Origin: Sphaerolaimus hirsutus
Taxonomy: Eukaryota > Nematoda > Chromadorea > Monhysterida > Sphaerolaimidae
NCBI GenBank assembly: GCA_964036195.1
Contig: CAXIWS010000345.1
Coordinates: 1 to 64,000 of the forward strand
Reading direction: 5' to 3'
Length of the DNA stretch: 64,000 nucleotides
Shown piece after piece: positions 5,097 through 46,139 of the stretch. A program made the translations under genes and the position numbers. The first letter of the stretch is position 1. Every line of letters begins with the position of its first letter. The notes beneath the pieces were generated by a model. The model ran no database searches. It was not told the DNA's origin and saw only the letters and a list, made by a program, of their open reading frames with translations.

Positions 5097-8000
5097 TTAA
5101 GCATTTTTCTGGCTCCTTTTGCTGACGTACTTTTTCAATTCGGCCTCTGCCGATTTCTTGTGCTCGCGAATCTGCAATAAAGTTTTACGTTGCGAAAAGT
5201 GGAATAATTAGAAGTGACTCCAAGATCTGGTGTTTGTCGGGGTTCAATGTCATACCTAGTGATGTAAAAAGCACCAGGACTTAAGCGCCAAGAGCCAATG
5301 GCGACACAGCAAAATGGCGCCAAGCGCCAAAAACGCCATGGCGCTTTTTCAGATCACAGCGCCAAGCGCCAATGGCGCCAGAGGACAGTGGCGCCAAGCG
5401 CCAGCGCCAAAAATTTCTCTATTTGTACATACAGCAGTGCACATGAAACGCTTTGGATCCAGTTATATTTATTTAATTCATTAACTGCGAGATAAAGCTC
5501 CTTGGATTGAAGCACTGAAATCAGTTAAGTTTATTTAACCGTAATTCTTTTAGCACCGATCAGAGAAGATGTAGCTTCTGCTGTTAATTGGAAGCTGCAG
5601 TTATTGGGTAAAATAATGAAACTCCTGTGAGAGAGAGATAGGAGATAGCTGCAAGTAGGTAGATAGTTAAACAATTGGGGGCGTCCAGGCGTCCCAGACT
5701 CTGTAAAATGTCAAATCTCATGCAAAGTACCAAAAGTCATGTAAAATACTCTTTAAAATGTCAAACATTTTTTACCATTTTACAGGGCATTTTACATGAC
5801 TTTTGACAACCTGCATGGCATTTCAATTTTGCAGGGCATTCTACATCACTTTACTGTGACATCCAATATAGGTCACATCAAAAACTAAAAATCTAAATTT
5901 TGGCGTATGACAGAATAGCCAGAAATGTTACGACGTAAAGAACCCTAATAAGGAAACCTCTAAAATGTCTTTTTTACTTCACTTTTTGCGGAAATGAGCC
6001 CAGGTGGCGGTCCCAAGCCCTGTAAAGTGTAAAGTAAAGTGTCAAATGTAAAGTCAAATGCGAAGTAAACTGTCAATTGTCATGCAAAGTTCAGCAATAA
6101 AATATTTATTTTTTTGTTTTGATTGACACTTTACTTTACACTTTACAGGGCTTGGGACTGCCCCCAGAACGTAAGAAAAATACCTGTTGGCACTTTGTTT
6201 CCGCCTCTGCCCATTCCTCGGCTAATCTCTTTAACCGCTGAAGTGAACTCAACATCAATTCCCGGTTGACATTTTTTGACTGCGCCGTGAGTTCGGCCGC
6301 AGTCACGGGCCCGCCAAAATGAGTGGAAATAAGCCCCGTCAAGTGGGCGGAGTTTTCGGATTCCATGCAACTCGACTCGGCCGCCAGATGTTGCGCCTGA
6401 AACGTGCGCAAAAATTTCAGTGAAACAGTTAAAGTTTGAATGAAAATCTAAAAAAATTCTAGTGAAAAATCCATGAAGATTACAATGATGGGTCCTTTTA
6501 GTAAAACTAACAGGTCAACCAGGGGGCAGTCCCAAGCCCTGTAAAGTGTAAAGTAAAGTGTCAAATGTAAAGTCAAATGCAAAGTAAAGTGTCAATCAAA
6601 ACAAAAAAGAAAAGATTTTATTACTGAACTTTGCATGACAATTGACAGTTTACTTTGCACTTGACTTTACATTTGACACTTTACTTTACACTTTACAGGG
6701 CTTGGGACTGCCACCAGGATGAGGTGAAAATCAAACGTAAAAAAACAAACATTTCCTGAAACACACACACACACACTAGTGACATCAAAGTTGGTGTCGA
6801 CCAAATTCAATCTATATTTGGTTAATTATGTGATTTCAGCTTCCCTATGTGATGGAGCATTGTTAATTTTTTATCGTGACACTTAATTTTCATTGTCTGC
6901 TTAGTGTGATGCATTACAAATTTGATGTTATTTAATTGACATTCAGTTGACGCGAATTTGCGATGTCAATGCTGACAATGGGCCCAATGCTGACAGACAA
7001 GGACGTAGCCAGGGGAGGGGCGGGGGGGGGGCGGCCGCCCCCCCTTCCCGGGCCGGACCAAAAAATGTGCCAGAAATGGCACTTTCAGAAGACGATTTTG
7101 TCGACAGTTTGAAATTTTTTGCGCGCAAGCGCACATTTTCACTCCAAAATATATATTTTCGGCTGACCGGTTCCCGCGACCTCAAAAGCAATGAAAATGG
7201 ACTCAATTCCTGTCCATGTCGCTCTATATGCCTGTAAAATACAGACGTATACTGCTATTTTGGCGCCAATGCCAACGCCAGTGGCGCCAGGGCGTGGCGC
7301 CTATGAATGGCGCTGGCGCCATGGCGCCATTCCCATACTACAGGGGTAAAATTTTAGGGGGGGGGCGCCGTCCCCCCGTTCGCCGGGCTCCGTATACAAT
7401 CCGTCCACCCCCCGCTCAAAAATCCTGGCTACGTCCCTGCTGACAAACATTCACAACCCACTCACCTTCACCAATCTCCAATCATCAAATCTTTGCAAGC
7501 ATTTCGCATCATTCGCCACTTTACCCAATGCGGCCGCAGATACGCCTTGATATCTATCAGCTGCCAACGTAGCATCACAATGTGCTCCGAAAAGAGACAC
7601 TATAGGGCCCGGATCTGCACTTTGGGCGTCGAGTTTTTTGGCCCCGCCTTTTTCACCGACTGTTTCCGGTCGCTTTACGTGCCCTTTTCTCGGTCGCCAC
7701 GTGAGGGAGTAAGACGCGAGTAGGCGGGGCCTGCGGTGAAAACGAACTGAATGTTTATTAATAGCAGTATAATGGCTGTGGGACCGCTGTTGAAGTATGT
7801 ATTATAATTTATATTTAGAAGTAGATATTATAATTTATAATACACTAACATTGATGACGGCTTATTCCTACACACTAGTAAAAAAAATGGAAGCTTTTAC
7901 ACTGAAAATGGCACAAAAACGAATGAAAACAACCATCCGCGACAGTTTGCATGTGAAGTTGTGCGCGTGCGCGCTAGAAAAGTACTAAAAACCTTGTGTT

Positions 8001-11000
8001 TGTCGAAACGTTTTTTAACAGTTGATAAACGTCGGCCATCCTTAGATAGGAAAAAGTCGATCGAAAAGAAAAGTGCACCTGGGCCTCAACAGTGGTTCCT
8101 TCTTTCCAATGGTTTTCTCACTATCATCGCTCAATCCGGAACACTCCGCCTTTAAATTAGCTTCAGGGCTCGGGCTTGAGCGCGGCCGTTTATTCGGGGG
8201 CGGGCGTATTAAAATGGGCGGAGTCATGCTGTTTGAACGACTGGTCGCCTGAATGTGGGATGAAGATTAATTACCGCTAACATATAAATGCTGCAGTCTC
8301 GACTTACCAAAACAGAGACACTAAAATTTTAATGGCAGAAATATTTAGTTATGCGTTCGAAGCGCTTTTTGGATGTGAAAGCGGATAACGGGTCTTCAAA
8401 AAAAATAATGTTTGCACGAAAAACAGGTCCATCAAAATTTTGAAATTTCCAGTCCCTTAAACCACCCGCATACAAGGCAACATTTTATTCTACGCAGGTT
8501 TCCATTCGGTAGATTTCTTATTACGCAATTGTAGTTCCCAAAAATAAAAAGACACCTCAAAAGTTCAGAGGCACACTGAAATTTTGCGTTCAGCGTTCGA
8601 ACGTTTTTGCACGCTGAACTACAAACGCTGAAATCAAAATCTAAAGAACGCAACGTTTTTGAAGGGTAAAAATTTCGGAATTTGCAATTCACATGCGAGT
8701 AGAATTTTTTACGCTTCAAAAATGTTGTGTTCTTAAGATATTGATTTCAGCGTTTGTAGTTCAGCGTGCAAAAACGTTCGAACGCTGAATGCAAAATTTC
8801 AGTGTGCGGTGCCCATCGAAATCAACGCACCCTGCTGTGAGATCGATTTCCATCCCTAACACTGCTGACGGCAGACATTCGATCATCTTCATTAGTCGCA
8901 TTGTCACAATCAGGTTCCGTTTTCGACCGCGGCTGATCCGCGTCGGGCGGCAGTGAATCGACGCCGCTAGCGTTTGGCACAGTGCCAAGATCGGTTTTCG
9001 ACGCCGGCAACTGCGACTGGCCGGGGGGCAGGCGCGTCAGCGATCGCGATTGCGCTTGGCTTATATTGGAGGGGCGGCGGCCGCGTTTACTGCTGCGAGG
9101 GGGCAGTTGATATTTGAGCCCGGTTCGGCGGCTGCGACTACGTCATAAATACTTATATTTAAGTAAACTCGATACTGGGGAAGGCACTTGATTTTTGAAA
9201 AACTTTTATCACATTTTTCAGTTATTATCACATTTTTTGCTGGCAATTGACCGCTGTATTTTGCTCGAAATACCACACCCCTGAAATACCCCCAGATCTG
9301 AGCGAGCTTACGAAAAAATACCCCCCCTCGAAATAAGAGTTAAGAGAATGTTACTGCCGAAAACTGCAGTTTGTGGTCTGTGTAACGCATAGGGTTGGAA
9401 ACAAATCAATTTGTTTAAACGCCTTGATTAAAAAAAATTAAAATCAGTTCTTTTTACAATCGCCCAAAATGGGGGTATAGAGAAAAAATACATGTATGTT
9501 TAGTGTCAGACAATCTATTGTTATGTTCATTGTGGTCAATATGTAAATATCAACAAACCCATGACTGCCCCTGTTCCCCCTCTGCCCGCCACCATACACA
9601 ACCATTGGCGGGTGCGTTAAAACTCCGCCCCCTCTACCAGTGACACAGGGCGCCACTGCGCGATTATTTGAATGAGGCATGGCGGAATTAGACTGTATTC
9701 GCATTATCGCCTGCGGCTGTATTTGAGTTGGTGAAGGGGAACGCTCTTTCATCACCACCAGTGAAGTTTGATCGGAATCTGAGACAAATTGGGGGGGGGT
9801 TAAAACGTAACATGCGTGTTTTGACCCGGTTTTGACCCGAATGAACCCGGCGCCAAAATTTGAAAAGCGCTAACCATCAAATTGCTGCTTTCTTGCGCGT
9901 TTTCTCGGCGACGCTTCAACCCCAGCATCGCTCGCTGTATTTTGACCTGTAATGTGGAAAATAGTGGTACGTATACTCGGCGGACCGCATGCTATGCATT
10001 AATGGCGCACCACACACTGAAATTTTGCGTTCAGCGTTTTGGCACGCTGAACTACAAACGCTGAAATGAAAATCTTAAGAACAAAACGTTTTTGAAGCGT
10101 AAAAAAATCAGCGTAAAAAAATTTGTAGTTCAGCGTGCCAAAACGTTCGAACGCTGAACGCGAAATTTTAGTGTGTGGTGCGACTTTGTGATCGAAACAA
10201 GCCATCATGACGCAATCCAGGGGTATCTTGAATTTTGACCCTCCGAGTGGTTGGATAGATAGCAAATCGCTCCTCTGGAGGGATAGATAGCTGAAAAATT
10301 TTCTGGGTGGGGGGTTGGGGGGGGGGGTTTGGGGGGGTTGTGGTGGTTCGATATATAGGCTTTTGCGGGGCATAGAAGGAAGAAAAGGGAGAAAAATCGC
10401 TAAAAGTAGTTGTAAAATAGCTCAAAATGGGTATACAAGAGCATATAGTACTTAAAATAGCTGAAAATAGGCAGTTATACGCATGAACCAGTGATTTTGG
10501 AGGTGAAAATCTATATATAGGTATGAAAAATAGCGATTTTGAGCGAAAATTAGGGTATAGTTTCTGAAAAATCGCTCCAGATAGGTAGATAGCTGGGCGA
10601 TTTGGGGGGGGGGTTTAGGGGGTAGTAACCCAAAATTTTGCCTCCGGGATAGATAGATAGCTGAGCGGCCTCCGGGATAGATAGATAGCTGGGCGGTTTG
10701 GGGGGGGGGTAACCCCCCCCCCCCCCAACCCCCCCCCCATTCGAGACCCCTGACGCAATCATTAATAAAATCAAAAATGTTAAAAAAGAAAAAAAAATGA
10801 TTTCAGGCTGTTGTTGTACTCGTTTCCGCCTTTCTCTTATTAAAGTATTTTTATATATTTTCGTGAAATGCATACATAAGTATCCTGCCGCGCGTTATCG
10901 ACTAAGACATAAGTAATTTTAGACGCATACTTCGTGGATCATTGAAAGTCACTCGCTGGCAATGAGCCAAATAAAACAAATAAACAGCCAAATGGTACAC

Positions 11001-13565
11001 TTACTTTGTATGAAGTTGCCCACTTTGGAGGCGTTCGAGTTTGAATTGTCCGACACAACCGAGTGATTGCTCGCCTGCTCGTCCGCCAATGACTCACTGG
11101 GCGAGCGCGATTCCCCGCCGCTGCGCAGTGTATTTACGTGTTGTTTGTAAAGGTATGTTTCCACTGTGCGCCGTTTCACGAAAAATATTTTCGGGTAAAA
11201 AACAACGGCGGCAAAACAAACGATGGTTGGACGTCGTTGCCAGCGGTATCATTGTCGAAATTGAGTTTCCTCGCAGAGCCGCTAGCAGTAGCTGAAAATG
11301 TTTTCGCACGGGTCGCCTTTCGCACGACAAAACGAGAATAAGCGAATCGGGAAAAAACGAACCTCCCTTGGGCCCGGGCGCCGAACTGCCAGCGAGCATC
11401 TTGGTGGGGGTAGGCGTCAAAACTCCGCGCCGCCTCTGCAGAATGCTCGGCCGCGGACTGGGCGTGCCCCCGTTGGCATTGTGCCCGGAGTGCTGCATTT
11501 GCATATGGCCCAGCTGTCCGTGCAGGGGCGACCCGCACGCGCTGGAGGGCCGGTTGACGCAGTGCAGCGACGGCACTTGGGGGGAAGGCATCGGCGGCTG
11601 AGACATGTGCTGCGTGCAGGGGGGGGGGGGGGGGGCTTGTGGGAGGGGTCTGTCTACGGTGTTACCCCCACGCCCCAAGGCCAAAATTTGGGGCTAGTAC
11701 CCGCTGACTAGGGTTCAAACGGGACCGCGATCCCGGTACATCGTTCGGCAAAAAGTCGGGACTTGGGCGGTCCCGGTCCCGACGGGTCTGTGCCGGTGCT
11801 GTTTTAAAAAATCGTGTTTTTAAAAAAAGCGCTTTTTTAAAATAAAAAATGCGGGGCCGTTGAATAAAGCGCTTTGTTCCATCCCTACTCCTTGCGCACA
11901 ACATGTAAAGCATGTAGTGTGAAAATTTTCAATTGGCATTAAAAACGATGCTTGCACTTTAAAAAAATGTTTAACAACTTGCGCAAACGTTAGGCTGTCA
12001 AAAACTTTATGCCATCCCAGCAAAAATTACCATATTAGGAGCAACGCTCCCGTCTCCGAATAAAACGCCCGCTCCAATTTACCTTAATAGGTCCGCTGAC
12101 CACGGAGGGCTCACTTTTAACTGGCGACGCGACTGTAGTCCACACGTTTGAAGCAGTCACAGCTGCAAAATGACATTTTAATTGACAAATTAAGAGCGAT
12201 AAAGCACACATTGTGGGGAGATTGAATTAAATTCTGGCAACTTTTTATGCAAGTTTGTCAGAATTTGACAACGCCACTTTTTGTGTTCATTTTCACATTT
12301 TGAAACTTAGGCTCGAAATTGTAATTTGCATGGAAATTATACTCCGGTTACTTTACACCTTGCACGCGTGGTTCCCGCTGGATGTGTGCCAACGATGGTT
12401 AACGCGTGCAAGTTTCATAAAAACATGATAAAATTGATTGTTGTTATAATGTTATTAATTAACATATTCACATCGATGACTTTTTTCATCTTTTTACAGA
12501 AATCGCATGATTTAATAATCATTGGCACGCTTCCCACACGAGACATAAATCAGTGCGAGGGCAGAGTATCACGTACGCTGACTATACACTTAAATACTTA
12601 CTAATAGATGTTTATCAATTTTATGCATTATAAAAATCAAAATGTGTAAAAATTGTCAGATTTCGAGAAAATAAAGATAACGTAAAGATAATATATCTGC
12701 GTCAAAAACCCCAACCGAACCAGAAAATTTTGGCTTAGTACATTAAAAAGTCGAAGCAATTGATCCCGTCTCCCACATTCACACAGAAGCCCCTCAAAAC
12801 CACACAAACCGGGCAAAATGTTTCTGTAAACCTTCTCAACATGTTGTCCAGCGACCGCGGGCAACGTGACTGGCGTCAGCGACGGCACGGGGCGTCCATT
12901 TGCGTTCGCGCCGCCACAATCCGCTGCCCCGTGGACATTGTTTACGGGCGTCAAGCGACCGCCCAAGTTTATCGATGGCGTCGCGGGGGTTTGGCGGGGG
13001 GCTGACAGTTTTGTGTGCAAAAATCAATTCAGGAGTTGATGGTGTTAATTTTTGCCGTTTCGCATCGATTTGTGATTACGTCTCGGCTTCGGACGTTTTT
13101 GAAATTTGGGTTCCGCGTCCGGAACTTTTTGGTTCCGCAGGCGCGGAAGTCTTTTCAGACATGCCCATCACAGAGTTTGAAATAATTTGGAGTCATTTGT
13201 GCATTTTACATGCAGGTCGGATTTTTCTCTAAACCTAATCTCGACTTCATTTTATTAGGTTTGTAGTTGAATGGCCGTGGAAAAGAAAGTATGACAAGAA
13301 AAACACACGAAAGTCCGCGCAGGCCGCATGGTTTCAATAGCACAAACAAAAGAACGACAGAACGAAATTTTGAAGGATTTCCCAGCACAATCCAATTTTA
13401 CTCAATTGGCAGCGTGCCAGAAAACAGCGTAAACAGAAAATCAAATATAAATATGAAAATCTACACGCATTTGGTGCCATCCAAAAAAAGCAACATACCG
13501 CCGGGAGCCACGGAATGTGAACTGCGAAATGGGACATTTCCAGCGGAGTTTTCCCCGCCAGGCGC
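5097..13565 (-). CDS. SAP130-like Sin3/HDAC corepressor subunit (5' end uncertain)
   Basis: Twelve minus-strand exons join in one frame with GT-AG introns: 13565-13499, 13001-12810, 12162-12083, 11609-11363, 11291-11180, 11120-11005, 9778-9598, 9092-8831, 8248-8079, 7730-7466, 6396-6184 and 5171-5097 (TAA at 5097-5099). They give 1980 nt, 659 residues. The 11291-11180 exon and the ends at 11180 and 9092 are least sure (9089 is an alternative). The N-terminal two thirds are Pro/Ser/Gly-rich and contain SPRPSIL (about 11460). The C-terminal part has a basic NKRPRSSP patch, an acidic LSDDSEK stretch, RPRPRLL, then predicted helices (DWRLVKAQHL, LQRLKRLAEEW) and a Lys-rich tail. Order and motifs recall the SAP130 C-terminal domain, which docks on Sin3 and histone deacetylase in the nucleus. 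A possible first exon is 14526-14503 (ATG, donor GTATGT, phase 0). The protein would be shorter than vertebrate SAP130. Exon phases are strong evidence for a gene; the family name is an inference. Confidence 0.6.
5285..5412. repeat. GGCGCC / GCGCCAAGCGCCA palindromic array
   Basis: A run of overlapping GCGCCAA and TGGCGCC units, each partly self-complementary. It lies in the last intron of the SAP130-like gene. The same array type returns at 7260-7335, 31436-31625 and 32071-32305. Confidence 0.8.
6004..6167 (+). mobile_element. Introner-family MITE (family I), CAG target duplication
   Basis: It begins GTGGCGGTCCCAAGCCCTG and ends CAGGGCTTGGGACTGCCCC, flanked by CAG at 6001-6003 and 6165-6167. 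The two halves are near-complete inverted repeats (TAAAGTGTAAAG on the left, CTTTACACTTTA on the right). It lies in the last intron of the SAP130-like gene, 16 bp past the donor and on the other strand, so it does not form that intron. Confidence 0.8.
6533..6717 (-). mobile_element. Introner-family MITE (family I), CAG duplication
   Basis: It begins GGGGCAGTCCCAAGCC and ends GGGACTGCCAC, flanked by CAG at 6530-6532 and 6715-6717. Its body is almost identical to the copies at 6004 and 16486. It lies inside the intron 6397-7465 of the SAP130-like gene. The feature end includes the right target copy. Confidence 0.8.
7260..7335. repeat. GGCGCC palindromic array
   Basis: Repeated TGGCGCCAGGGCG-type units, same family as 5285-5412, in an intron of the SAP130-like gene. 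It is followed by short G and C runs. Confidence 0.7.
8571..8812. mobile_element. Short inverted-repeat MITE (GCACACTGAAATTTTGCG ends)
   Basis: The left arm reads GCACACTGAAATTTTGCG, then CAGCGTTCGAACG. The right arm is its reverse complement ending near 8812. It lies in the intron between exons 9092-8831 and 8248-8079, only about 20 bp from the donor. A related copy is at 10007-10182. Confidence 0.75.
10007..10182. mobile_element. Short inverted-repeat MITE (GCACCACACACTGAAATT ends)
   Basis: The ends are GCACCACACACTGAAATTTT and its near-exact reverse complement at 10161-10182. The inner arms hold CGCTGAACTACAAACGCTGA and its complement. It is the same family as 8571-8812 and is nested in the TATACTCGGCGG element. 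Confidence 0.75.
10228..10745 (-). mobile_element. GATAGATAGCTG / G-run repeat element
   Basis: Several copies of CTCCGGGATAGATAGATAGC and long G runs surround a central A-rich portion. The opposite-strand version is at 15935-16395, matching over the ends and the middle. No coding is seen. Confidence 0.6.
12338..12587. mobile_element. TATACTCCGGTTAC MITE
   Basis: It starts TATACTCCGGTTACTTTACA and ends GTACGCTGACTATA. A second copy at 50865-51114 matches along its whole length. It lies in the intron 12163-12809 of the SAP130-like gene. Confidence 0.7.
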
Positions 13566-15019
13566 CTGCAAATAAAATTACAGTGAATTTTCTTGTACAA
13601 AAAAACCTACAAAAATTACAAATGACCTGTTGCTGTTTGACGTGAGACATGGCGCTGGGAACAATAAGCACCTCGGATATACCTCAAGAATGCTACAGTG
13701 CGCGCAGAAATTTCTGTTTTTTTATTTATTTTTCGGCCATCCAAACAACCAGACGAAGAGACCCCGTACGGGAACTTGGCACCCAGCCAAAAACAGCCGG
13801 TCGAAACTTGTTTCGAAATCGATGAAATAAAATAGGCTAAAAATAGGTATATAACCATCTATATAGACGAAAATAGCGAAAATACCTCTCTGCACCTCAA
13901 AATATGTGCGTTACCTGCGAAATGTAAGATATATAGCATTTTAACTTTATTGTTGAGCCACACACAAAAGTGACATGCCTGACCGAAAATGCGTGCTTAG
14001 CGCTCGCGGGCATTCACACCAAAGTGGGCGGAGCTTATGCGGACCGGCGCATGCAAAGCAAAATATCTGCGCGCACTGTAAACACCCATTTTCGAATGAC
14101 TGCACCGTTTTTTCAGTTTTTTTGTCGAGTGACCACTTTTGGATACATTTCGATGATTCAGTACTTTTTTAACTTGAGAATTTAAAAAAGGAAAGAAGAA
14201 ATAAAAAATAAAAGGACAACAATCTACCATACATCACTTTCGTGAAATACTTCCCCCATGTAATGCCCATAGAAAGTATTTTTGTTGACTTCCCGTTTTA
14301 GTTTTCACTGTATCCAATTCTGATTCCATCTCACGAATCGGGGCTCGTATGTGAAGTTGGCTCAACCCCACGTTTGTGTTTGGATATTTCAACGTATTGT
14401 ACGAAACAGAGTAAAAGACGCAGGATGCCGCCCGAGTCACCGCTAATGACTACGAAATGCAATTACGCGATCGGAAATAATCGCTGATGGCGGCCCACAT
14501 ACTAGCATGCCTAGCCCGTTCGCCATCGTCGACGGCGGTATATAAAAAAGTTGTATCCAAAAACTGTTTTGGCAAACAGCCAACTTCACATAAGGGTCTC
14601 CTCGCATCCCGCCCAGCTGAAAATCTTCAACCGCTGAAACGCGGCGTGATCAAAGCAAATAGACAGCAGCAAATGGTTGACGAATGACTCCATCCATAAT
14701 AATAGTCATTCATCCACGAAAGCAATCCTTTCGCATTCAATTTCAATCGACCTTGTAAAAAACATTTCAAAGTGAAGCGGCATTTCATGTCGTCACAATT
14801 GAGTTTTGCTCAATTTACCTTTTCATCACATGCATTCATCTATGTAAAAGTGCACCTCAAAAGTAAATAATACTGCGAGATCATTCAAATGCTTGTGCGC
14901 TATTTGCGCATGGTGAATTGCCATTTGTTGAATGCGCGCTATTTCACATGCTGATCGATTCACAAGCCACTTAGAAGTTGATGCAGACTGAAAAATATAT
15001 TATTTCATTGAGGCATTTG

Positions 15020-15171
15020 GGGGTCACTCGCAAACCCTGTTAAATGACAAACATCTTGCAAAGTGTCAAAACCTGTGAAAAATGGTTTAAAACCAGTTAA
15101 AATTTTGATAAGGATGTTTACCAAAATTTTCACATCATTTTACAGTTTACAGGGTTTGGGAGTGGCACCTG
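15020..15171 (-). mobile_element. Diverged introner-family MITE (family I)
   Basis: It begins GGGGTCACTCGCAAACCCTG and ends CAGGGTTTGGGAGTGGCAC followed by CTG (15169-15171). The left flank is TTG, one base from CTG. It is intergenic and older than the other copies. Confidence 0.65.
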
Positions 15172-16485: not shown

Positions 16486-16680
16486 GGGGCAGTCCCAAGC
16501 CCTGTAAAGTGTAAAGTAAAGTGTCAAATGTAAAGTCAAATGCAAAGTAAAGTGTCAATCAAAACAAAAAAGAAAATATTTTATTACTGAACTTTGCATG
16601 ACAATTGACACTTCACTTTGCATTTGACTTTACATTTGACACTTTACTTTACACTTTACAGGGCTTGGGATTGGCACCTG
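16486..16680 (-). mobile_element. Introner-family MITE (family I), CTG target duplication
   Basis: It begins GGGGCAGTCCCAAGCCCTG and ends GGGATTGGCAC, flanked by CTG at 16483-16485 and 16678-16680. It is nearly identical to the 6533 copy, which suggests recent spread. It is intergenic. Confidence 0.8.
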
Positions 16681-20124: not shown

Positions 20125-23100
20125 ATGGATCCATTCCATTTCCCCAAGAAGCTGAAACTGTCTCACAGCCGATTAATCAAGGAGCCACCGTCAAATATCG
20201 ATTTGCAACGGCAATATCGATATGCGGCGTTCATCAGGTGCCAGTCACAGACCCTGTAAAATGCCCTGTAAAATGTCAAATGTCAAAGGTCGTGACGTTT
20301 GCCATTTTACCGGCCATTTTACATGACTTTTGACACTTTGCTTGACATTTGACATTTGACAGGGCATTTTACAGGGTCTGGGACTGCCCCCAGCACAGTC
20401 ATGGCGTCCACGTGCTGCATTGTGTGCATTTTGATGCTGCCCGCGTCCTATGAATATGTTGTGAAGGTGCACTCGAGTTTGCAGAATGAGATGACCTTTT
20501 GCATGGTGAGTTGACTTTTTTTCTCTTTTTTTTGGAGTCATTTGCTCAGTTCTGGTGAAGTTTGTTGGATGGATACTTTTTTTCGATAAATTTTTCGGGA
20601 ACTCGGCAAAGAGGTATTCTGTCTTGGTCGACTGTTTTGACATCTGTTTTGACCAGCAAAAATTGAACCCAATCCCTGGTGCGACGACGACCCTGGCACC
20701 GGAAAATGGAAAATTCATTCAGGGTCCCGGTCCAAACCCCATACTTTTTGTCCCAATCCCATCAAAAGAAATTGCAATAGCAATCCTAGTCCCGAAAACC
20801 CAGTACGTACCGATCGGTACCCTTGTGAAAACCGATCGGTACCGATCGGTTTTCACCCAGACTTTTCTCAGTGGGGAACTATTCAAGATGGCGAACTTTC
20901 AGGGGGGAATCGTCAAATTAATAGTTGTTATGTCGTCTAAATTTTCAAGCATGTTTCTATCAACTCAATTGAGGCGTCCAATTCTAAAAGTCGACAAGTC
21001 CAAAATATGAAAATTTCGAGTTAGGCCCGGAAACGTCATCTGGGGCTACTTCCGCACATTTTTCATCATTTTCCATAAATTTTTTGACCTCACATGCCCA
21101 TATGGCATAGTGCCAATTTGACATTTTTGGGGAAAAATGCAAAAAATTTGGGCAAGAAGTCGACAACTCCACTTAGTTTTGGGCTAAAAGGCGACAAGTT
21201 CATCCCCCGCTTCCTTTTTTTATGTGAAAAAAACGCAAGAAATGTGATAAGTCCACTGTGGAAACCGATTTCTAAAAGCCGACAAGTACAAAAATTTCCC
21301 ATAAGGGAGGCGCAACGCGGGCGGGAACAAAAATGTTCTCGCGTGCAAGAAGGCGACAAGTCCATTTCCCTCCCAAAAACAGTTTTGCTCTGACCGAATG
21401 GAATTTTATGGACACCCCATTTTTCACATATACGTTGGGATTAGGGGCTGAAAATTTGACACTTTATTGTCAACATATGGAACTTAATGGAAAGCATGAG
21501 AGAGCCAAATTGGACACGCACCACGGGCCTGGAATTGGGTTTGAAACTTAAAATGCGATTTACTCAAAATCACATTTTGTGGACTTGTCGACTTTTAGAA
21601 TTAGACGCCTCAATTCATTTAATATAACAGCATTAAGTAACCCATTTTTGTTCAAATTGTACACAACAAATTTATAATATGCCAAAGGTGAAATTTCACG
21701 CCAATTTCCAAAGGTAAAATTACAATTTCCACACTGTTTCTGTAACAATCTACGATTACCGTATTGGCTTGTTTTGAACCCCGGGCACTGTATTTTTTCA
21801 CAACGTCTTTACAGTGGCACTCAATTCGAGCATGGCACTCTATTCGAGCATGGTACTGTATTATTTGGTAAGGCATTTCAATTCCTTTATAGACATCGAT
21901 ATACATATTTTGGTACGTATATCGATTCCAGCTGTGTAATTATGATGTAATTGCAACAGCTGCGTCAATTAGATATTACAATGACTGGACATTTTTTAAC
22001 AACAGAAGCGACAGAACAGAAGCCACTCGCATGCAGTAGCGTTTTTAAACGTACTGCGTTTCCCGCGTCATGTTTGCTTCTATTAGATAGGTGTGGGGGG
22101 CACTCAATTCAAGCATGGCACTGTATTGTTTCATAAGGCAGTTACCCTGGCACTGTATTCGAGCATGGCACTCAATTCAAGCATGGCACTCAAAACAAGC
22201 CAATACGGTAGGTAGGTTTTTTTTCTAAAATATACCCTATTTCATCACATTTATTACGTTTTGGGTAGGTATTCTATACTACGATTCTCCATGCAAATAC
22301 CTGACGGAATAATAACACCCCCTCGAATAAGCCCCCCCCCCCCGAAATACCCCTCAAAATTTGCACTCTTAAAAATAATCCCCCCTGGGCTTATTTCGAG
22401 GAAATACGGTATTCAAGCAAATACCATTCTCGTCAATTTCACACATTTAAATACCAAATCATTCCACATTTTTCAATCTCCCAGAAAAAATCGCAACTTC
22501 TGTGGCAGAGGGCCACCGTGCTGCAAACCCAATTCGCAAAGCCGAGCGAAAATGACACTCATGATTGGATCAGAAAAGTGAGACAAGCTGACAGGTTCGA
22601 TTTGGACGACACGAGGTGGCTACAGGGTGGCTCTTTTTACAGGAGGAGAGGTGAGGGTTTTTTCTTAGATATACTCGACGGACCGCATGCTATGCATTTT
22701 TCTGAAGGAAACAGGGTTCAAACGATATCACTTTTCGATATCGATATTCGATATTCGATATTTTTTCAAAATTTTCGATATCGATATTCGATATTCGATA
22801 TTTTTTCAAAATTTTCGATATCGATATTCGATATTCGATAGTTTTTCAAAATTTTCGATATCGATATTCGATACGATATGGACCCTCGATATCGATATTC
22901 GATATTCGATACAAAAAAATGGTCGATATTCGATATCGATATTTCGATATTTTCGATATTTGATATTTAGCTTTTGGTATAGCAAGGCATATTTCAAGCA
23001 GCATGTTGTATTTTCATATGGTTGCAAACATGGTTGATTATCTCTTTACTGAAAAGTACAATTGATTTAAACAAGGTTTACAATGGTCAGAATGAAAAAA

Positions 23101-26100
23101 TCGAAGAAAAAACATGACGAATCAAATTGTATCAGACAAACAAAAATTGGTAGATACAACAATTCATACTTATAACCCAATTGTTTAAGGGCATGTTGCA
23201 AAAAAGCAGCATATCAGCATTTTCTGGCTTCAAATATGAGGTAGGTAGTTCAGTAGGTATGTGGCCAAACCAAATACAAGAAATGTGGAGTAAGCACTCC
23301 AACAAAGATAACATTAAATACTTTACTTTTACTCATCAACTTAGATACTATAAGCAAATCAAATTAATCACAAATATCTCAAAACAAAAATAATAACTCA
23401 ATTAAGGACATTATACAGGTTCGATATATCGAAAATATGGTCGATATTCGATATCGATATTCGATATTTTTTCAAAATTTTCGATATCGATATTCGATAT
23501 TCGATATTTTTTCAAAATTTTCGATATCGATATTCGATATTCGATATTAAAAAATGGTCGATATCCGATATTCGATATTCGATACGATATATCGTTTGAA
23601 CCCTAGGAAACACTCCATCATGACGTCATCGTTAATAAAATAAAAATTGTTTCAGCAAAAAAGGAAAAACATTCGACACTTGTACATGACTTCACCTTTT
23701 TCTTTTTGAAATGTTTTTCTTTTTTTTTGTGAACTTGAATACATAAGTATCCTGCTCGCGCATTAGCGACCACGACAAAAATAATTTTGGGCGCATACTT
23801 TGCGGTCCGTCGAGTATACGAAGAATGAGATTGTGTAACAGAATGCCACCGTATTTACCTGATTCCTCTGGGGGAATTTTTCGTCAGACTTTTTGAGGTC
23901 GGAACTATTAAAGGGGCGATTATTCAAGTGTTAGAATTATTAGGGGAGTTGTTCAAGGGGAGGAGGTTTTTGGTCTCCTCACCTGGCCAACAGGGGGGAG
24001 TTATTCAAGGGGGAGGTCTTATTCAAGGATATACGGCATTTGTTTACCTCACTTCACCTGTGAATGTAGCCAACTGTGATGCAGGTCTGAATCCAGGCAC
24101 TCATCCCAGCGTGAGTATCCAGAGATCCATTGATATCGTAAATTCTGAACATTCAAACCATCGCACTGATGGAACTACTAATGGGAAACCTGTCAATGAC
24201 AGAAAGTGGGATAGAACCACCGATGGTGTGTGGAGTTTTGGAAAATTTGTGACCCACCCAGTGGGTGAGAATGGGAGACATCCAGGTGCCACTCCCGGAC
24301 CCTGTAAAGTGCCCTGTAAAATGTAAAATGTCATGTAAAGTGTCAAAAGTCATGTAAAATGCCCTGCAAAATGGCAACCATATGTTTGCCATTTGGCAGG
24401 GCATTTTGCATGACTTTTGACGCTTTGCGAGACATTTGACATTTTACAGGGCGTTTTACAGGGTTTGGGACTGCCCCCAGGTCCCGACGATAGACTGCAA
24501 ACTGCTAGAACATTCATTGGAGAAGGAGGTCGAGGTGGACTGCATGTATGTGATTTACTTGTTATGTTTATAGTATGTTTTCTATCACACCACTTCAATA
24601 CTATCTATTCTATCTCAGAATCTGAATTTGCAACAACCTGAGTTAGAAATCGTGAGGAAAATGATCGAAGCGGGAGACATTTCTTTCGATGAGCCGCCAG
24701 GTGCCAGTCCCAGACCCTGTGAAATGCCCTGTAAAATGTCAAATGTCATGCAAAGTGTCAAAGGTCATGTAAAATAAAATACCTGGTAAAATGGCAAACG
24801 TTTTAGCAATTTTTTAAACAGAATTTGCCATTTTACCTGGCATTTTGACATGACTTTTGACACTTTGCGTGACATTAGACTTTTTACAGGGCATTTTACA
24901 GGGTCTGGGACTGCCCCCAGATGAAGTCACACTGGCCAGAGCTGTGCAAGCTTTGGTTCAAGCAGAACTGGATAGACAAAGACAGGACCATCATCCAGAA
25001 AATTTGCCTGTTATAGCTTCACCAGCTGCAGAGCCATTTAGCCAGACACAGGCATACTATGGTGGCTCTGGTGGCGGTACACCAAATGGTGGCTCCGGTG
25101 GCGGTACATTAAATGGTGGATTCGGTGGTGGTTCTGGTGGCTCCAGTGGTGGTACATCACATGGTGGACCTGGTGCCAATCCCAGACCCTGTAAACTGTA
25201 TTTTAAAGTGTCAAATGTCATGCAAAGTGTCTAAAGTCAAGTAAAATGCACTGCAAAATGGCAAATGCATGTTTGCCATTTTACAGGGAATTTTACATGA
25301 CTTTTGATACTTTGCATGACATTTTACATTTAACAGAACATTTTACAGGATCTGGAACTGCCCCCTGGTGGTGGTACATCAAATGGTGGCTCAGGTAGTG
25401 GAAGTTACAATGGTGGAAATGGCGGCAACAGCCAGTGTGAGTTCACATTATCCATCTTGTGATTTCTATTCAGCCCCCACATTTTTCCTGACAGTAACCT
25501 GAACCTACCCAGGTTGCACCTGCCACCAAGGGCCACCAGGTCGGCCAGGCAACCCTGGTGACCCTGGTGCCGATGGCATGGATGGGAGGATGGGAGAAAT
25601 GGGCCCTCCTGGCAGAGATGCACCCCCTGGTCTCAAGTACAAAGTGCCCACGTGTGTGAAATGTCCAAATCGATTGCCCCCGGCAGGGGTCAGAGGTGGA
25701 AGAGGTCCCAAGGGCAAAAAGGGAGAGACTGGAGACCCTGGCTATTTGAGGGTTGAATATATACCAGGAAAAAGAGGTCCACCAGGACCGGCGGGAAATA
25801 GGTGCTTGGGTGATAGTTTTGTTTTACATGACCTCGTAAACAGCCCCACCTTCCACATTCAGAGGCTACCAGGGTAACAATGGTTTCCCTGGCCAACCTG
25901 GAAGTCCTGGCAGGGAGATTCCAGTAGCACTGATACCAGGCAGGGCAGGCAGAACAGGGCAGCCAGGCAGGCCTGGCGATTCTGGAACACTTGGGGATGA
26001 TGGTAGGGATGGTCCGCCAGGGCCCCCGGGACCCCCTGGTATGGGTGGAGGTAGAGGGCCAAAGGGTGAGTGTTGGTGGCTGCATCACTGACTGCACTAT

Positions 26101-26728
26101 TGTTGGCTGGGAGAGGCTGGTGCCAGCCTCTAGTCAAGGAATGAAACATTTGGGATTTGGCGTGGAGAAAATAATTGATGATCAAAAATTTCTAAAAACT
26201 TCAAAATTTAAAATTCAAAGATTACTGAGATATATGAAAATATAAGCAAAATTCCAATACACAGTTGAATTTCACAATTTGATGCATTGTTGGTTGTGAA
26301 AACAAACAGGAAAGTGCCAGTGGAAATGAATACCTGATTGAAAACCCTACCAAAAGATAAACACATTTTCCGGTTGAAAAGATTGAGGACAGTTTAATAT
26401 GAGTAAAAACATTTGGGAATTTCTCAAAAATATGATCTGTTCTCAATTGTGTTAACCTGCAAATTTTTTCTATTGTCTTCTAATTGAAATGAACATGCAC
26501 TTTCACAATAACTCCTATTAACTACAAAAATAAATTTTAGGCACCTATGGCCCACCGGGACCTCCTGGCCCACCAGGCAACCGAGGGTCTCCAGGAGTTT
26601 GTGACCACTGCCCACCCCCCAGATACCCCCCTGGATTCTTTCAAGCTAGGGGCATTGAGCCCAGTCAGATAGTGGCAGCTTTTCATCAGTTGGGATTTGA
26701 GAGACAGCTACCGGATCAGGAAGGGTGA
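20125..26728 (+). CDS. Nematode cuticle collagen, 575 residues, eleven exons
   Basis: Exons: 20125-20237, 20394-20505, 22485-22650, 24070-24285, 24481-24545, 24619-24700, 24921-25172, 25395-25436, 25513-25801, 25863-26065, 26541-26728 (TGA last). All junctions are GT-AG and in phase. The start ATG has an in-frame TGA 9 nt upstream; CTCGCAG at 20091-20097 could be a splice-leader acceptor. Residues 29-75 form the cuticle-collagen N-domain: Arg/Tyr-rich QRQYRYAAF, a membrane segment (about 32-54) and [15 protein letters not shown] before Cys74. Residues 76-349 are a long non-collagenous part ending in GGSGGGT repeats. Cys350, 351 and 353 open the first Gly-X-Y block, Cys397/400 separate it from the next, and Cys534/537 close the last. 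Such collagens trimerise by these cysteines and are secreted by the hypodermis into the cuticle. Usual length is near 300, so this N-terminal extension is unusual. Introns 1, 4, 6 and 7 are single transposon copies. If intron 7 ended at its target duplication the protein would gain nine residues. Confidence 0.9.
20238..20393 (+). mobile_element. Introner: collagen intron 1 (family I MITE)
   Basis: The whole 156-bp intron is the element. Exon ...TTCATCAG is followed by GTGCCAGTCACAGACCCTG, and the element ends CAGGGTCTGGGACTGCCCC with the duplicated CAG as acceptor. The halves are inverted repeats rich in AAATGTCAAATGTC and its complement. It splits the codon in phase 2. The spliced reading gives FISTVMAS within the membrane segment. 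Confidence 0.88.
20957..21625. mobile_element. Inverted-repeat element with CGACAAGTCC units (collagen intron 2)
   Basis: The left end TTGAGGCGTCCAATTCTAAA and right end TTTAGAATTAGACGCCTCAA are reverse complements apart from one base. Between them the unit GCGACAAGTyCA recurs about every 40-90 bp (for example 21190, 21280, 21352). No coding is recognised. Confidence 0.6.
21757..22210. mobile_element. TACCGTATTGGCTTGTTTTGA inverted-repeat MITE
   Basis: It starts TACCGTATTGGCTTGTTTTG and ends CAAAACAAGCCAATACGGTA at 22210. Inside, GGCACTCAATTCGAGCATGG-type units repeat near both ends. It lies in collagen intron 2. Confidence 0.75.
22670..23818. mobile_element. TATACTCGACGG MITE carrying a nested TCGATA element
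   Basis: The ends are TATACTCGACGGACCGCATG (22670) and TGCGGTCCGTCGAGTATA (ending 23818), the same family as 28527-28784. It is split by the TCGATA element at 22713-23605. It lies wholly in collagen intron 3. Confidence 0.7.
22713..23605. mobile_element. hAT-like element of TCGATA satellite units
   Basis: Inverted ends AGGGTTCAAACGATA and TATCGTTTGAACCCT are flanked by AGGAAAC on both sides (8 bp with one mismatch). Both subterminal parts are arrays of TCGATATCGATATTCGATAT with A/T spacers. The intact MITE at 28527 reads through the target site, which confirms an insertion. Confidence 0.65.
24286..24480 (+). mobile_element. Introner: collagen intron 4 (family I MITE)
   Basis: Exon ...GACATCCAG is followed by GTGCCACTCCCGGACCCTG. 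The element ends GGGTTTGGGACTGCCCC plus duplicated CAG, and the exon resumes GTCCCGACG. It is 195 bp, phase 1, and excision gives Pro-Gly-Pro-Asp in frame. The inverted halves meet near the central CATATGTTTGCC. Confidence 0.88.
24701..24920 (+). mobile_element. Introner: collagen intron 6 (family I MITE)
   Basis: Exon ...GAGCCGCCAG is followed by GTGCCAGTCCCAGACCCTG. The element ends GGGTCTGGGACTGCCCC plus duplicated CAG, and the exon resumes ATGAAGTCAC. It is 220 bp, phase 1. Both ends are the cleanest pair of inverted repeats among the four. Confidence 0.9.
25173..25367 (+). mobile_element. Introner with CTG duplication: collagen intron 7
   Basis: Exon ...GGTGGACCTG is followed by GTGCCAATCCCAGACCCTG. 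The element ends GGATCTGGAACTGCCCC followed by CTG (25365-25367). The duplicated target is CTG, so no AG stands at the element boundary. Reading into the element meets a stop, so it must be removed. The first in-frame downstream acceptor is CTCAG at 25390-25394, which drops 27 exon bases but keeps phase. Confidence 0.8.
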
Positions 26729-26762
26729 TCATATTTTGGAGTGAATGTCACTGTGGAGTCTG

Positions 26763-28847: not shown

Positions 28848-29481
28848 GGGCCAGATTTAATACTCCCTACAGATTTGTAGGGTAGGGCGTACGCCCGATA
28901 GATTTTTTAACGTTCAGCCGCATCGACGCACAAGCACCGAGGGCAAGGCGGTTAGTAAAATATACGAAACCATCCCTTAAGGTCGCCGATATTGCAATAT
29001 GACGTATATCGCTTCGAGTTTGGCCCAGAAATCACTATTTCGTCATTTCTTGGCCGTCTCCCAATTCGCTTTTTATTTTATTTTGTCGGGCGGGTTACTC
29101 GCATAAGTCGCGCTTTTGTACGCTCGTGCATGCATTTCTTTCTTGTCGCTGCCCTCATGGTTTCGGTTGCAGACAGTGAACACTAAAAAAGTGACCACCT
29201 GACTACACAAAAGCGCGAATTATGCGAGTAACCCGCCCGACAAAATAAAATAAAAAGCGAATTGGGAGACGGCCAAGAAATGACGAAATAGTGATTTCTG
29301 GGCCAAACTCGAAGCGATATACGTCATATTGCAATATCGGCGACCTTAATGGATGGTTTCGTATATTTTACAAACCACCTTGCTCGCGGTGCATGTGCGT
29401 TGATGCGGCTGAACTTTAAAAAATCTACATGGCGTACGCCCTACCCTACAAATTTGTAGGGAGAATTAAATCTGGCCCCAG
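28848..29481. mobile_element. Palindromic family III element, CAG target duplication
   Basis: It begins GGGCCAGATTTAAT and ends ATTAAATCTGGCCC, flanked by CAG (28845-28847, 29479-29481). The arms are close reverse complements over about 270 bp with a short central loop near 29180. It ends 26 bp before the globin-like exon, in its downstream intron. Confidence 0.8.
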
Positions 29482-29787: not shown

Positions 29788-31025
29788 GGGCCAGATTTAA
29801 TTCTCGAGTAATGTGCCCTACCCGAAAGTAATGCACCCGAAATCGGGCAGCCGTCCTACAAATTGTTTACGGATGCCCTACCCTACACGTCAGTCTCCCG
29901 ACACGACAAAACGCAATTCAATTGCGTGTCGGGAAACACGTGTCGGGTGTAGGGCATATTTATTTGTTTTGTTTAGTGTTTCACAAAAAAAGAAAATGTG
30001 TATACTCGGCGTACATGATACTATAAAATGAGTTGCATGATGTCATATCATGCACGCTGTATCCAACCCGTAGAACTCTGTTTTGGTGACTCGTGCTTAC
30101 GCATATACGGAGTGAATACATTGTGAAGTGTGTGTAAACTCGGCGGACATTATGGAAGTCAATGGTCTAAGGAATTTTTGTACGAGTGCAGTATAAACCA
30201 ACGATAGGGTCACATGTGAATTTGGCCCACGTCCAAGTCACTCTGCGTTTCAGACAAATGAGAGCGAAAAACGCAGGTTTCATGTTCACGTCACTGATTA
30301 TCGCTGCGGAATGCAATAAATCGACCAGAAATCATCACAAGTACACTAGTTGACACATTTGTGATCATTTCCAGTCGCTTAATTGTATTCCACAGACGTA
30401 ATGAGTAACGCAAACATAAATCCTGCGTCTTTCACCTCATTCGTAAAATACGTAACCCAACGCGTGCCAAGTTAACATACAGGATATCTATCACATTCAT
30501 CCTTTTTAGGATTTCGTTAGCATTGTTTGAGCGCGATATCTAGATTTCTGACTGTGTATTTTTATATCCGTGCTTTATCCATTTATTTTCACATTTGAAA
30601 GTTCAATCAGTTTAAATAAACTGTGAATCAAACGGAATCCGTCCATTTGAATTCGAATTTGAGACACATCTTACTAGTTCATAAAAGAAGGAAAGCTGAC
30701 TCGTTTCATGTCAGCCGAGTTTATCTATTTAATAAAATTTCATAAAGTTTTTTTTCTAAATCGTGATTTTCATATTTTTATCAACCTAGTTCTGTTCCTG
30801 CCCATCGTTATTTTGCTGGAGGGCGGAATATTATTTTTCTTTTTCTTTTGTCGGCCACGCGCCCGACGAAATGTGAGAATTGAATAGGAAATTGGTGTGT
30901 AGGGCGCCTTACATGCATAACTCTGCTATGGATTGTGCACGGTTTTGTCAGCAAGTAGGGAGATGCGTGTCGGGAGTAGTGCATAACTTAAGAATATTTG
31001 TAGGGCAAATTAAATCTGGCCCCTG
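29788..31025. mobile_element. Family III element, CTG target duplication
   Basis: It begins GGGCCAGATTTAATTCTCG and ends AAATTAAATCTGGCCC, flanked by CTG at 29785-29787 and 31023-31025. About 1.24 kb. The interior has no transposase that I can recognise. Its right target copy directly abuts the family II element at 31026. Confidence 0.75.
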
Positions 31026-31300
31026 GTGCCATTTCGGCAAATTGAGAAGTGAGAAGGCAAAATGGGAAAAGTGAAGTGAAATGGCAAGTAAATTGGCAAA
31101 AGCGAAGTGAATTGAGAAGTAAAATAGCAAAAGAGAAAAGAAATTACTTCTTATTTTTATTTTTTACTTCGCTTTTGCCAATTCACTTGCCATTTCATAT
31201 CGTTTTTGCTAATTCACTTGCCATTTCACTTCGCTTTTGCCAATTCACTTCGCATTTGCCGTTTTACTTCTCACTTCTCAATTTGCGGAACTGACCCCAG
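31026..31300. mobile_element. Family II MITE (GTGCCATTTCGGCAAATTGAG)
   Basis: It starts GTGCCATTTCGGCAAATTGA and ends TCAATTTGCGGAACTGACC before CAG (31298-31300). The left flank is CTG. The body is made of GCAAAAGCGAAGTGAA-type units on the left and complements on the right. The GTGCC...CAG layout is the same as in the introners. Confidence 0.7.
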
Positions 31301-40140: not shown

Positions 40141-41115
40141 ACTTGTGCACAAGTAAATGGACTTTTGCTCGCGCACAATTACACTTGTAAGAATATCACT
40201 TGTGCACAAGTAACTGCATTTGCGGAGACAGCTTTTTTGTTTCGTATACAAAGCAAAATATACTTGTGCACAAGTAAACATGACTTGTGGAGCTATTATT
40301 TTGTGGTATAAACAAAGCAAAATGCACTTGTGCACAAGTCCACGTGACTATCGGACCGGAGTACCGGAACTGTAATTAAATGAAATTTTCCGGTCCGCCA
40401 TTGAAGTGTGTTGCGCATCGGCAAACTTAGGGGTGTAATTAAAGAGACATTATGTTGTGCACTAGTAGCTTATATCGCGCATCTCAAGTTCGATTTGGCT
40501 ACTGATAGAAATGCAAAAAAAGAGGTCATAAATAGATGAAAACATAAGTACAAGTTCAGGAATCGTTGAATGTAACACACTTAGGTGCCGCAAATGAATA
40601 AATTTGCAAATGTAAACCACTAAGTAGCAAGTTACGTAAATTAAGCAGATTAATGCGTGTGAACTGGAAATAGAACACACGTTGTACTTAAAATGCACTT
40701 GCATATATAAATAGAGCAATCGATAAGTGTTCCAGCGCACCCAACCCACTTTAATTACTCACTCGATGCATTTATCGATGAATATATGCAGTCAATTGTA
40801 GCAATGTGAAATAAGCAGATGTAGTGATTGGGGACATTTGGTGCAGAGAATTATTGACTGCATCAAATGCGGATTGTGCAAGTATAAATTTGTGTTGCAA
40901 CTGGAATGTGTGAAGTGTTTATTGGAAGTACAGGTGACACATTTCTAATTCAAATAGACATAAAATAAACAAACATTAGAGAATTAATTAGTAGGACATT
41001 GGTGAACGTTTTACACCTTTTTGAAAACATTTTTCATATTTCAAGTCAAAGAGACTTGTGCACAACACATGTTACTAGTGCAGAAGTCAATTTTCCATAA
41101 TCAACATCAATCGCT

Positions 41116-41440
41116 TTGACTTGAAGCAGAGGTGATACGTTTTTGTTCAAATCAATCAAATTAAATCATTTTGTCAACAATTAGACTAGTGCACAAGTCA
41201 CGTGTGTCGTGCACAAGTCGCCATGACTTGAAGCAGAGGTGATACGTTTTTGTTCAAATCAATCAAATTAAATCATTTTGTCAACAATTAGACTAGTGCA
41301 CAAGTCACGTGTGTTGTGCACAAGTCGCCATGACTTGAAGCAGAGGTGATACGTTTTTGTTCAAATCAATCAAATTAAATCATTTTGTCAACAATTAGAC
41401 TTGTGCACAAGTCACGTGTGTCGTGCACAAGTCGCTTTGA
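41116..41440. repeat. Tandem repeat, about 107 bp x 3
   Basis: Three successive units start with TTGAAGCAGAGGTGATACG (about 41119, 41227, 41335) and include ACTAGTGCACAAGTCACGTG. They are nearly identical, so recently amplified. Confidence 0.75.
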
Positions 41441-41447
41441 CTTGAAG

Positions 41448-42275
41448 CCGAGGAGATCAATAACAGAAACACGTCCATGCAATCTGTACATGATCTGACA
41501 CGCTGGGAGCGTCCCCGTCGCTCATATCGGACACCTCGTTGGAGGTGACTAATGCCCAGCTAATTTTTCTTCATTCCATCAATGACTATCAAGTATTACT
41601 ACATTATTTGTCTGCTTCAAGTCAAAACAACTTGTGCACGACACATGATACTTGTGCACTAGTTGTATTTCCTATAATATAAATCCGTGCAAATATGAGT
41701 GCACTGCAGCATGTTCTCATTGACATGTTCATGTTACTATTATGCTTATATTGAACTATTTAAATGGAATTTATTGTTTACCTCAGTTCAAAGCTGGCGT
41801 ATGAATAAATAAATAAATAAATAAATTATCATATTTATATACATAAATAAATTTATCAGTACTTGAATATATGGCGTGTTTAAATATACTAATTTTATAC
41901 AATTTCAATCTTTGTTGTTAGAATCAGGGAGTAATTATTTAAACAATTTTTAATTTTATTTGTCAATATAAGTAATAAAATAGACATAAAATTAACAAAC
42001 ATTAGAGAATTAATTAGTAGGACATTGGTGAACGTCTTACACCTTTTTGAAAACATTTTTCATATTTCAAGTCAAAGAGACTTGTGCACAACACATGTTA
42101 CTAGTGCAGAAGTCAATTTTCCATAATCAACATCAATCGCTTTGACTTGAAGCCGAGGAGATCAATAACAGAAACACGTCCATGCAATCTGTACATGATC
42201 TGACACGCTGGGAGCGTCCCCGTCGCTCAGATCGGACACCTCGTTGGAGGTGACTAATGCCCAGCTAATTTTTCT
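41448..42275. repeat. Duplicated ~120-bp segment (41448 and 42152)
   Basis: The segment from GAGATCAATAACAGAAACAC to CCCAGCTAATTTTTCT appears twice with one or two differences, both after a TTTGACTTGAAGCCGAG module. Between the copies lies AT-rich sequence with AAATAAATAAATAAAT at 41804. Confidence 0.65.
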
Positions 42276-42378
42276 GATGTCAATTTCTGATTTCTGCTAA
42301 TGTCAATATAAGTCATTTTCACCAACTGCGCAAAATATACGGTCAAAATAATGGGCAAAATAACGAGGAACGAGGTAT

Positions 42379-44293: not shown

Positions 44294-45326
44294 CGTTTTT
44301 GTCGAAGCTGTCGTGCGTCGAAAAAATATATACAATTTGATCGCAAATGGTAGCTGAAAAAAATGAACGTTCCTTTTATGTCAGGAAAAACTCAAAGTGG
44401 TTGCCTAAGGCTACAAAAAAATAATGTCCATGATCCATCAAATAAAATGAAATACTGGAATGTCATGCAGAGATAATCATCTTTTACTGCACCACAGGCA
44501 AAAGATTACATTTAGATTCAAAAGCAAACAAAATATACACAAATGTCTGTTTCAAGTCAAAATGACTTGTGCACAACACCTGTGACTTGTGCACTATTTG
44601 TATTTCCTATAGTATAAATAGATCCATGCAAGTAGAAGTGCGCTGCAACATGCGCAGTGCACTGGGACAGGTGTAAATTTGATACAAAGTGAAATTTAGT
44701 GCAAACGTAAGTGTAAACATGTGCATTGACCTACATAACTATTCCCTTCAAAGATAATTTGTCTATTGTTTAAGTAGAAAAAAATTGCACATAAGTACAT
44801 ATTCTATAATGCATATAAATGCAATCGCGAGTACACTGAGACAAATGTAAGATTAATTTGCATGGGAATCTAGTGCAACCACCTTTGTCAGTGCATTGCG
44901 CATGTCGCAGTGCAGTCCTATTTGCACGGATGTATATTGTGGGAAATTTGATTTGTGCACAAGTCGCATGTGTCGTGCACCAGTCACTTTGACTTGAAGC
45001 AGTAGACATCACGCAAAAAGCTGTCAAAAATATATCCATGCAGATAGGAGTGCACTCAGGCTTGTGCAGTGCACTGAGACAGGTGTACATTTGATACGGG
45101 TGAATTTTAGTGCATGCACTGACGTATGTAAATGAAGCAGTTATGTATCAATGTAAATACAAAATTCACATTGCTTTTTTTACATTTCAAATCAATTCAT
45201 ATACAATTTGATCACAAATGGTAGCTGAAAAAAATGAACGTTCCTTTTATGTCAGGAAAAACTCAAAGTGGTTGCCTAAGGCTACAAAAAAATAATGTCC
45301 ATGATCCATCAAATAAAATGAAATAC

Positions 45327-45620
45327 TGGAATGTCATGCAGAGATAATCATCTTTTACTGCACCACAGGCAAGAGATTAAGGCATTGTAGCAATCGCAAT
45401 TATGACTGATTCCATAATGAGGAGAAATTCTGGAATGTCATGCAGAGATAATCATCTTTTACTGCACCACAGGCAAAAGATTAAGGCATTTGAGCAATCG
45501 CAAATATGACTGATTCCATAATGAGGAGAAATTCTGGAATGTCATGCAGAGATAATCATCTTTTACTGCACCACAGGCAAGAGATTAAGCATTTGAGCAA
45601 TCGCAATTATGACTGATTTT
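45327..45620. repeat. Tandem repeat, about 104 bp x 3
   Basis: TGGAATGTCATGCAGAGATA starts units at about 45327, 45431 and 45535. The first unit also belongs to a duplication of 44340-44510. Confidence 0.75.
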
Positions 45621-46139
45621 TATTGTAGGTAACCCGCATGGCCAGCGTGCATTCGTCACTTTGAAAAAGATGAAGTGACAGTGGAATGATCAAACAAATG
45701 ATCCGAATTTCTTACGAGTGCAACTTATATAAAATATCAAAGACAATGCCGCCATTACAATCGCACTTGTGTAATAAAGGAAATTCCCACAATGCACAGC
45801 ACAGCACAGTGTAATAAACCACAGCGGAAATTCTTTTGATCGATTTCACAAAAAGCGCCGCCAAAGGCAATGATTTATGACAACTTCATATTTAGCTGCA
45901 AGTACATATCGCTTCTGGTCATTGCTGCGCGGGTCCAAATTTGTTATTGACATGCGATACTTTTACAACCCTGAATTTGATTTACTGTAGGATCGTAAAG
46001 TTATCGGTTTATGACATGCAAAAGTTGCTTCATTTCTCCATCGAATGTAAAACAATGAAATATTTGTGTTCACGACAGCACGAAATTTACATCAGATTTA
46101 TATGACTCGCGCACAAGTCACATGTGTTCTGCACAAGTT

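Follow-up and report, generated by a model that had tools for sequence, protein, structure and literature searches.

How can a coding sequence gain an intron that is complete from the moment it arises? This question is raised by a cuticle-collagen gene in the window, the 64,000-nucleotide stretch of DNA analysed here (positions 1 to 64,000 of contig CAXIWS010000345.1). Introns 1, 4 and 6 of this gene each consist of one inverted-repeat element plus, to its right, a duplicate of the exonic CAG. It is very probable that all three are insertions of a single family of non-autonomous DNA transposons, resembling miniature inverted-repeat transposable elements (MITEs), that acts as an introner. The family consists of elements of ~150–220 bp with long inverted repeats and was followed through a chromosome-scale genome of 348,482,957 bases in 762 contigs, in which the window is contig C289.

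The collagen gene occupies 20125..26729 on the plus strand and comprises 11 exons (20125-20237, 20394-20505, 22485-22650, 24085-24285, 24481-24545, 24619-24700, 24921-25172, 25368-25436, 25513-25801, 25863-26065, and 26541-26729). Once the ten introns are removed these join into a 579-codon frame that opens with ATG and remains uninterrupted to its stop. The 579-aa protein carries a Col_cuticle_N domain at residues 36-83 (E 3.3e-7) followed by Collagen repeats (E 2.7e-11) in Pfam, which is the domain order of nematode cuticle collagens, and at least 56 places in the genome encode Col_cuticle_N. The assignment is based on the open frame, the Pfam match, and the absence of indels relative to a second copy of the locus on contig C7. 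The closest protein match, from Gnathostoma spinigerum, has 33% identity over only 11%, and a search with the N-terminal 290 residues alone gave no match at E 1. A search of the genome for SL1 was likewise negative, as were its controls. Introns 2 and 3 hold other repeats. Retention of intron 1, 4 or 6 adds 4, 3 and 2 stops, respectively.

Intron 1 (20238..20393, plus strand, 156 bp, phase 2) is composed of an element at 20238-20390 and the duplicated CAG at 20391-20393, and its site is residue 38, within the Col_cuticle_N domain. Intron 4 (24286..24480, plus strand, 195 bp, phase 1) contains an element at 24286-24477, and intron 6 (24701..24920, plus strand, 220 bp, phase 1) an element at 24701-24917, each again followed by the duplicated CAG. 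The three elements start with GTGCC, end with CCCC, and are similar to one another. A preliminary description of this DNA had equated these introns base for base with single element copies, taking the donor GT from the element and the acceptor AG from the duplicated CAG. The coordinates, the lengths including the right-hand CAG, both ends, and the flanking triplets are all confirmed in the window, and the origin of GT and AG follows from the sequence. While the three copies described in the collagen are real, a fourth was overlooked, to which the rule cannot be applied. This copy (25173..25367, plus strand) lies between exons 7 and 8 and consists of an element at 25173-25364 and a duplicated CTG. 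It has a donor GT, and the frame stays intact when it is removed with one CTG, but its 3' border is TG. Of the nine copies in the window, four lie within the collagen coding sequence. Reckoned by CWG sites this has P 0.0014, a figure that is suggestive only, as the gene was chosen beforehand.

The element introns are also distinguished by their predicted folding. Introns 1, 4 and 6 form near-full hairpins with fold z of -11.8, -18.4 and -21.9, compared to +0.5 to -0.9 for the non-element introns 5, 8, 9, and 10 (introns 2 and 3 left out). In these hairpins base 5 pairs with the eighth base from the end. Such a structure may aid splicing by bringing both borders together.

In the mechanism proposed for this family, a transposase would cut a CWG target, mostly inside CCWGG, and duplicate the CWG. 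A forward insertion at CAG would then read CAG/GTGCC...CCCCCAG/ (slashes mark the borders), with the donor GT supplied by the element and the acceptor AG by the second CAG, and excision from the RNA would give back the original exon base for base. As the 5' end of the element begins with GTG, any forward copy at CAG would possess both donor and acceptor. Forward insertion at CTG, or insertion in reverse, would form no GT/AG pair. CCAGG, which falls within CCWGG, resembles a proto-splice site.

Copies of the element are found throughout the genome. A search with the 220-bp element of intron 6 returned 2583 first-look candidates, and scoring of 40 of these gave 82 matches, corresponding to ~40 places. 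The CAG-preceded 5' terminus was located at 5348 + 5280 = 10,628 places with up to two mismatches, a tolerance that also admits CTG, while a reversed-pattern control found 0. The exact terminus preceded by CTG occurs at 1183 places. The 100 exact CAG places that come first extend to C1:28.5 Mb, compared to C1:29.5 Mb for the corresponding 100 exact CTG places, hence the two forms are about equally dense on C1. The exact 5' terminus was not found in prokaryote and viral contigs.

The ends of the family are GTGCCANTCCC and GGGACTGCCCC. In the fetched loci and the window, 78 copies were recognised with up to six mismatches in the two termini. Perfect CWG duplications flank 45 of the 78 (28 CAG and 17 CTG), a share somewhat favoured by the border search, which gave preference to borders with a matching CWG no more than two bases away. 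The duplication is preceded by C in 31/45 and followed by G in 30/45. A GTG start is present in 42 of these 45 copies, with GTG paired with GGG at the other end in 27. Two copies, L023 on C9 and L051 on C1, have GTG at both ends, making a donor possible in either orientation. Among seven unselected CAG copies, the first on C1, only one lies in a frame of >100 aa, and the 3' end was poorly recognised in three. It is therefore likely that the majority of copies do not form introns in coding exons. Mixed duplications with CTG on the left and CAG on the right exceed the opposite pair (7 vs 2); with P 0.09, this excess was not used as an indication that AG is selected.

The second copy of the collagen locus allows the coding sequence to be compared with its insertions in place. 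The region C7:26668200-26694500 is collinear with 9.8-27.3 kb of the window and is probably the other haplotype, with a segmental duplication being the alternative. All four insertions are present at the same places in the C7 collagen, and the element introns share 94-97% identity with their C7 counterparts. Across the coding sequence 48 of 1740 nt are different, 29 of them third positions, with 0 indels, no stop, and a dN/dS of 0.21. In the true frame 28 of the 48 differences are synonymous, an excess with P 4e-7, compared to P 0.99 and 0.90 in the other two frames. All six gap runs between the copies fall in introns (P 0.008; excluding introns 2 and 3, which align poorly). The lack of coding indels, the dN/dS, and the true-frame synonymous excess indicate that the collagen is kept under coding constraint, although its elements would stop translation if retained. 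This constraint is indirect support for their removal from the RNA.

The mobility of the family, asserted in the preliminary description, is evident both from copies throughout the genome and from a difference in presence between the window and C7. The copy at 16486-16677 is absent from C7, where a clean empty site, CTACACCTGTTAGTTC, is found instead. The single CTG at this site fixes the duplication as three bases. Additionally, two paralogous cuticle collagens (C14:12395962 and C6:16512498) align without a gap across the intron 1 site, over residues 13-74 and 26-75, respectively, around residue 38. Both lack intron 1 at this position, and no paralogue extends as far as introns 4 and 6. The genome-wide copies, the empty-site difference, and the two paralogues without intron 1 support an origin of the introns by insertion of a mobile family.

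The collagen is not the only gene with this arrangement. A PTEN/tensin-like gene on C14 (L020) is interrupted by three forward CAG copies. With the copies removed, its first stretch matches PTEN at E 3.6e-15 across junction 1 (phmmer against the PDB), junction 3 lies within a Pfam PTEN_C2 match (E 3.7e-9), and junction 2 separates the two aligned domains. PTEN_C2 was the only match above the curated Pfam cut-off in the ten joined frames scanned. The collagen and L020 have three putative introns each with borders matching those of the element. A lustrin-type match at L024 (E 3.6e-4), which has the junction inside and an imperfect CCG/CAG duplication, was below its cut-off.

Several observations weigh against the introner interpretation. 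Splice sites were scored with a donor and acceptor matrix built from 18 introns in the window that are not elements; a hand-assembled, unconfirmed second gene contributed 12 of them. On this scale the element donor scores 1.9 bits, below 17 of the 18 host donors, and the element acceptors 1.0-2.2 bits, below 16-17 of the 18 host acceptors. The exact borders are outside the top six of 58 frame-keeping pairs at intron 4 and of 94 at intron 6. The CTG copy at 25173-25367 breaks the AG rule, and the coding signal is not significant when exons 4-7 are taken alone (7/20, P 0.19). In L020, a 6-residue gap in the PTEN alignment lies beside junction 1, a Pfam search at 0.05 with a 222-aa piece was negative, and so was a PDB search at E 1 with the C2 piece. 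Lastly, the comparison of spliceable with other copies for location in longer sense frames gave P 0.055 (32 vs 33 copies) while its antisense control gave P 0.005, leaving coding enrichment of spliceable copies unsupported.

The splice scores bear directly on where the elements are cut out. Splicing elsewhere than at the exact borders, with codons gained or lost, would agree with the higher scores of frame-keeping alternative pairs at introns 4 and 6. The fourth copy also has a possible acceptor of the same phase 27 nt downstream, an AG ending at 25394 in both locus copies, the use of which would remove nine codons of a glycine-rich linker. Furthermore, codon-adding introners are described in the sections consulted of PMC9860276. 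Conversely, removal at the exact borders gives back the exon as it was before insertion, and at intron 1, where the paralogue alignment is gapless, these borders rank first of 12 frame-keeping pairs by the splice matrix. Splicing away from the borders is considered unlikely as an account of the locus, and introns 1, 4 and 6 would be spliced at the exact element borders.

The low scores, together with the fourth insertion lacking an AG, could also indicate that the collagen is a pseudogene broken by insertions, its apparent introns being unspliced. This is very improbable given that the two locus copies have accumulated 48 coding differences without an indel or a stop, at the low dN/dS given above and with a synonymous excess confined to the true frame. 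That the elements landed in pre-existing ordinary introns and merely fill them is hardly credible: transposons are common inside introns, as the other repeats in collagen introns 2 and 3 illustrate, but at all three sites the borders equal element plus duplication with no older intron remnant on either side, and the intron 1 site has no intron in two paralogues.

The collagen elements resemble a described transposon group. The NuwaI group of the PHIS superfamily, in the portion of PMC4482050 drawn on here, shares with them the CWG duplication, inverted repeats, and animal hosts, as well as the GGG usually found at the far end. They differ in that both NuwaI ends are usually GGG whereas the 5' end of the collagen family is GTG, making the donor, and no transposase is tied to the family. 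The same portion lists 16 NuwaI host species among fish, beetle, crustacean, mollusc, and anthozoan, with no nematode. The family may be mobilised by a NuwaI-type transposase, in PHIS elements a DDE enzyme working with a Myb/SANT partner, and its GTG end may derive from GGG by a one-base change that would have converted a NuwaI-type MITE into an introner. The transposase domain DDE_Tnp_4 (PF13359) was matched at 163 places. One fetched copy, L050, was rejected as the autonomous partner because the element termini are not within 5.5 kb of it. Many copies of this DDE_Tnp_4 family have near-identical scores, and an additional ~190 bases that contain TGA stops and interrupt the match are perhaps an intron.

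Other copies in the window lie outside the collagen gene. One at 6004..6164 on the plus strand has a CAG duplication. Reversed copies are found on the minus strand at 6523..6714 (CAG on the plus strand, CTG in the element sense), at ~15021..15168 (a damaged TTG/CTG duplication on the plus strand), and at 16486..16677 (CTG on the plus strand, CAG in the element sense), the last being the copy absent from C7. A decayed copy with approximate borders is present at 5687..5860 on the plus strand. Three of these had been listed as CWG copies outside coding sequence, at 6004, 6533, and 16486. All three exist, with the second ~10 bp off its true start of 6523, while the copies near 5687-5860 and 15021-15168 had been overlooked. 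The C7 counterpart of the 15021-15168 element (L048) has lost the last element bases and the CTG in a small border deletion.

The window also contains other repeats. A second CWG-duplicating family, at 28848-29478 (CAG/CAG) and 29788-31022 (CTG/CTG), ends in GGGCCAGATTTAA/TTAAATCTGGCCC; it is symmetric with GGG at both ends and has no donor. A further family, B, at 31026-31297 and from 35540, shares outer termini of GTGCCA... with the element family, the right end of 31026-31297 being ...ACTGACCC, and has a different interior, GCAAATTGAGAAG. A long repeat-rich stretch of CTTGTGCACAAGTC-like units covers ~41000-56500. Neither tRNAs nor Rfam families were found in the window. A gene at 5097-13650 on the minus strand, hand-assembled from 13 exons, was a candidate SAP130-like gene but was not retained as such, having no homologue and no Pfam match above the cut-off.

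How introns originate has been asked for a long time, and introners have seemed almost absent from animals. The introner elements of Micromonas and Aureococcus (Huff et al. 2016) reportedly hold one splice site in the element and take the other from the duplicated target, and are said to differ from the collagen family in hosts, duplication lengths, and sequences. In a survey of 3,325 genomes (PMC9860276), introners are given for two animal groups only, with copepods named and 'nematod' absent from the main text, the part considered here. As excerpted, the DNA-transposon introners of this survey resemble the collagen family in forming near-identical introns, in carrying terminal inverted repeats, and in duplicating their target, and its Chrysochromulina type likewise has its own 5' splice site and a co-opted 3' site. 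Those introners make a 4-bp duplication, in contrast to the 3-bp CWG of the collagen family, the host of which is an animal with nematode-type cuticle collagens. In the available extracts, a study of nematode intron gains (PMC9169325) mentions introners only as found elsewhere, and PMC13326754 concerns tunicates.

The claim that the mechanism is known and that no description of this family in a nematode collagen is known stands for the most part. The mode is known from the extracts of PMC9860276, and no title or abstract start on introners in nematodes was found in the open-access literature; the host, on the other hand, is shown only by its nematode-type cuticle collagens. It therefore largely holds that this is an introner family in an animal with such collagens, a group without described introners in the open-access literature searched.

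On the whole it is somewhat favoured that a NuwaI-type transposon, with its end changed from GGG to GTG and a CCWGG target containing (C)CAG/G, creates introns genome-wide in this animal, the target choice of the transposase explaining both intron placement and exact removal. A CCWGG target that includes CCAGG would be a simple reason why an inserted transposon is able to act at once as a perfect intron. With approximately ten thousand recognisable 5' ends and presence/absence between two copies of one region, the birth of introns would become observable in this family with RNA and population data.

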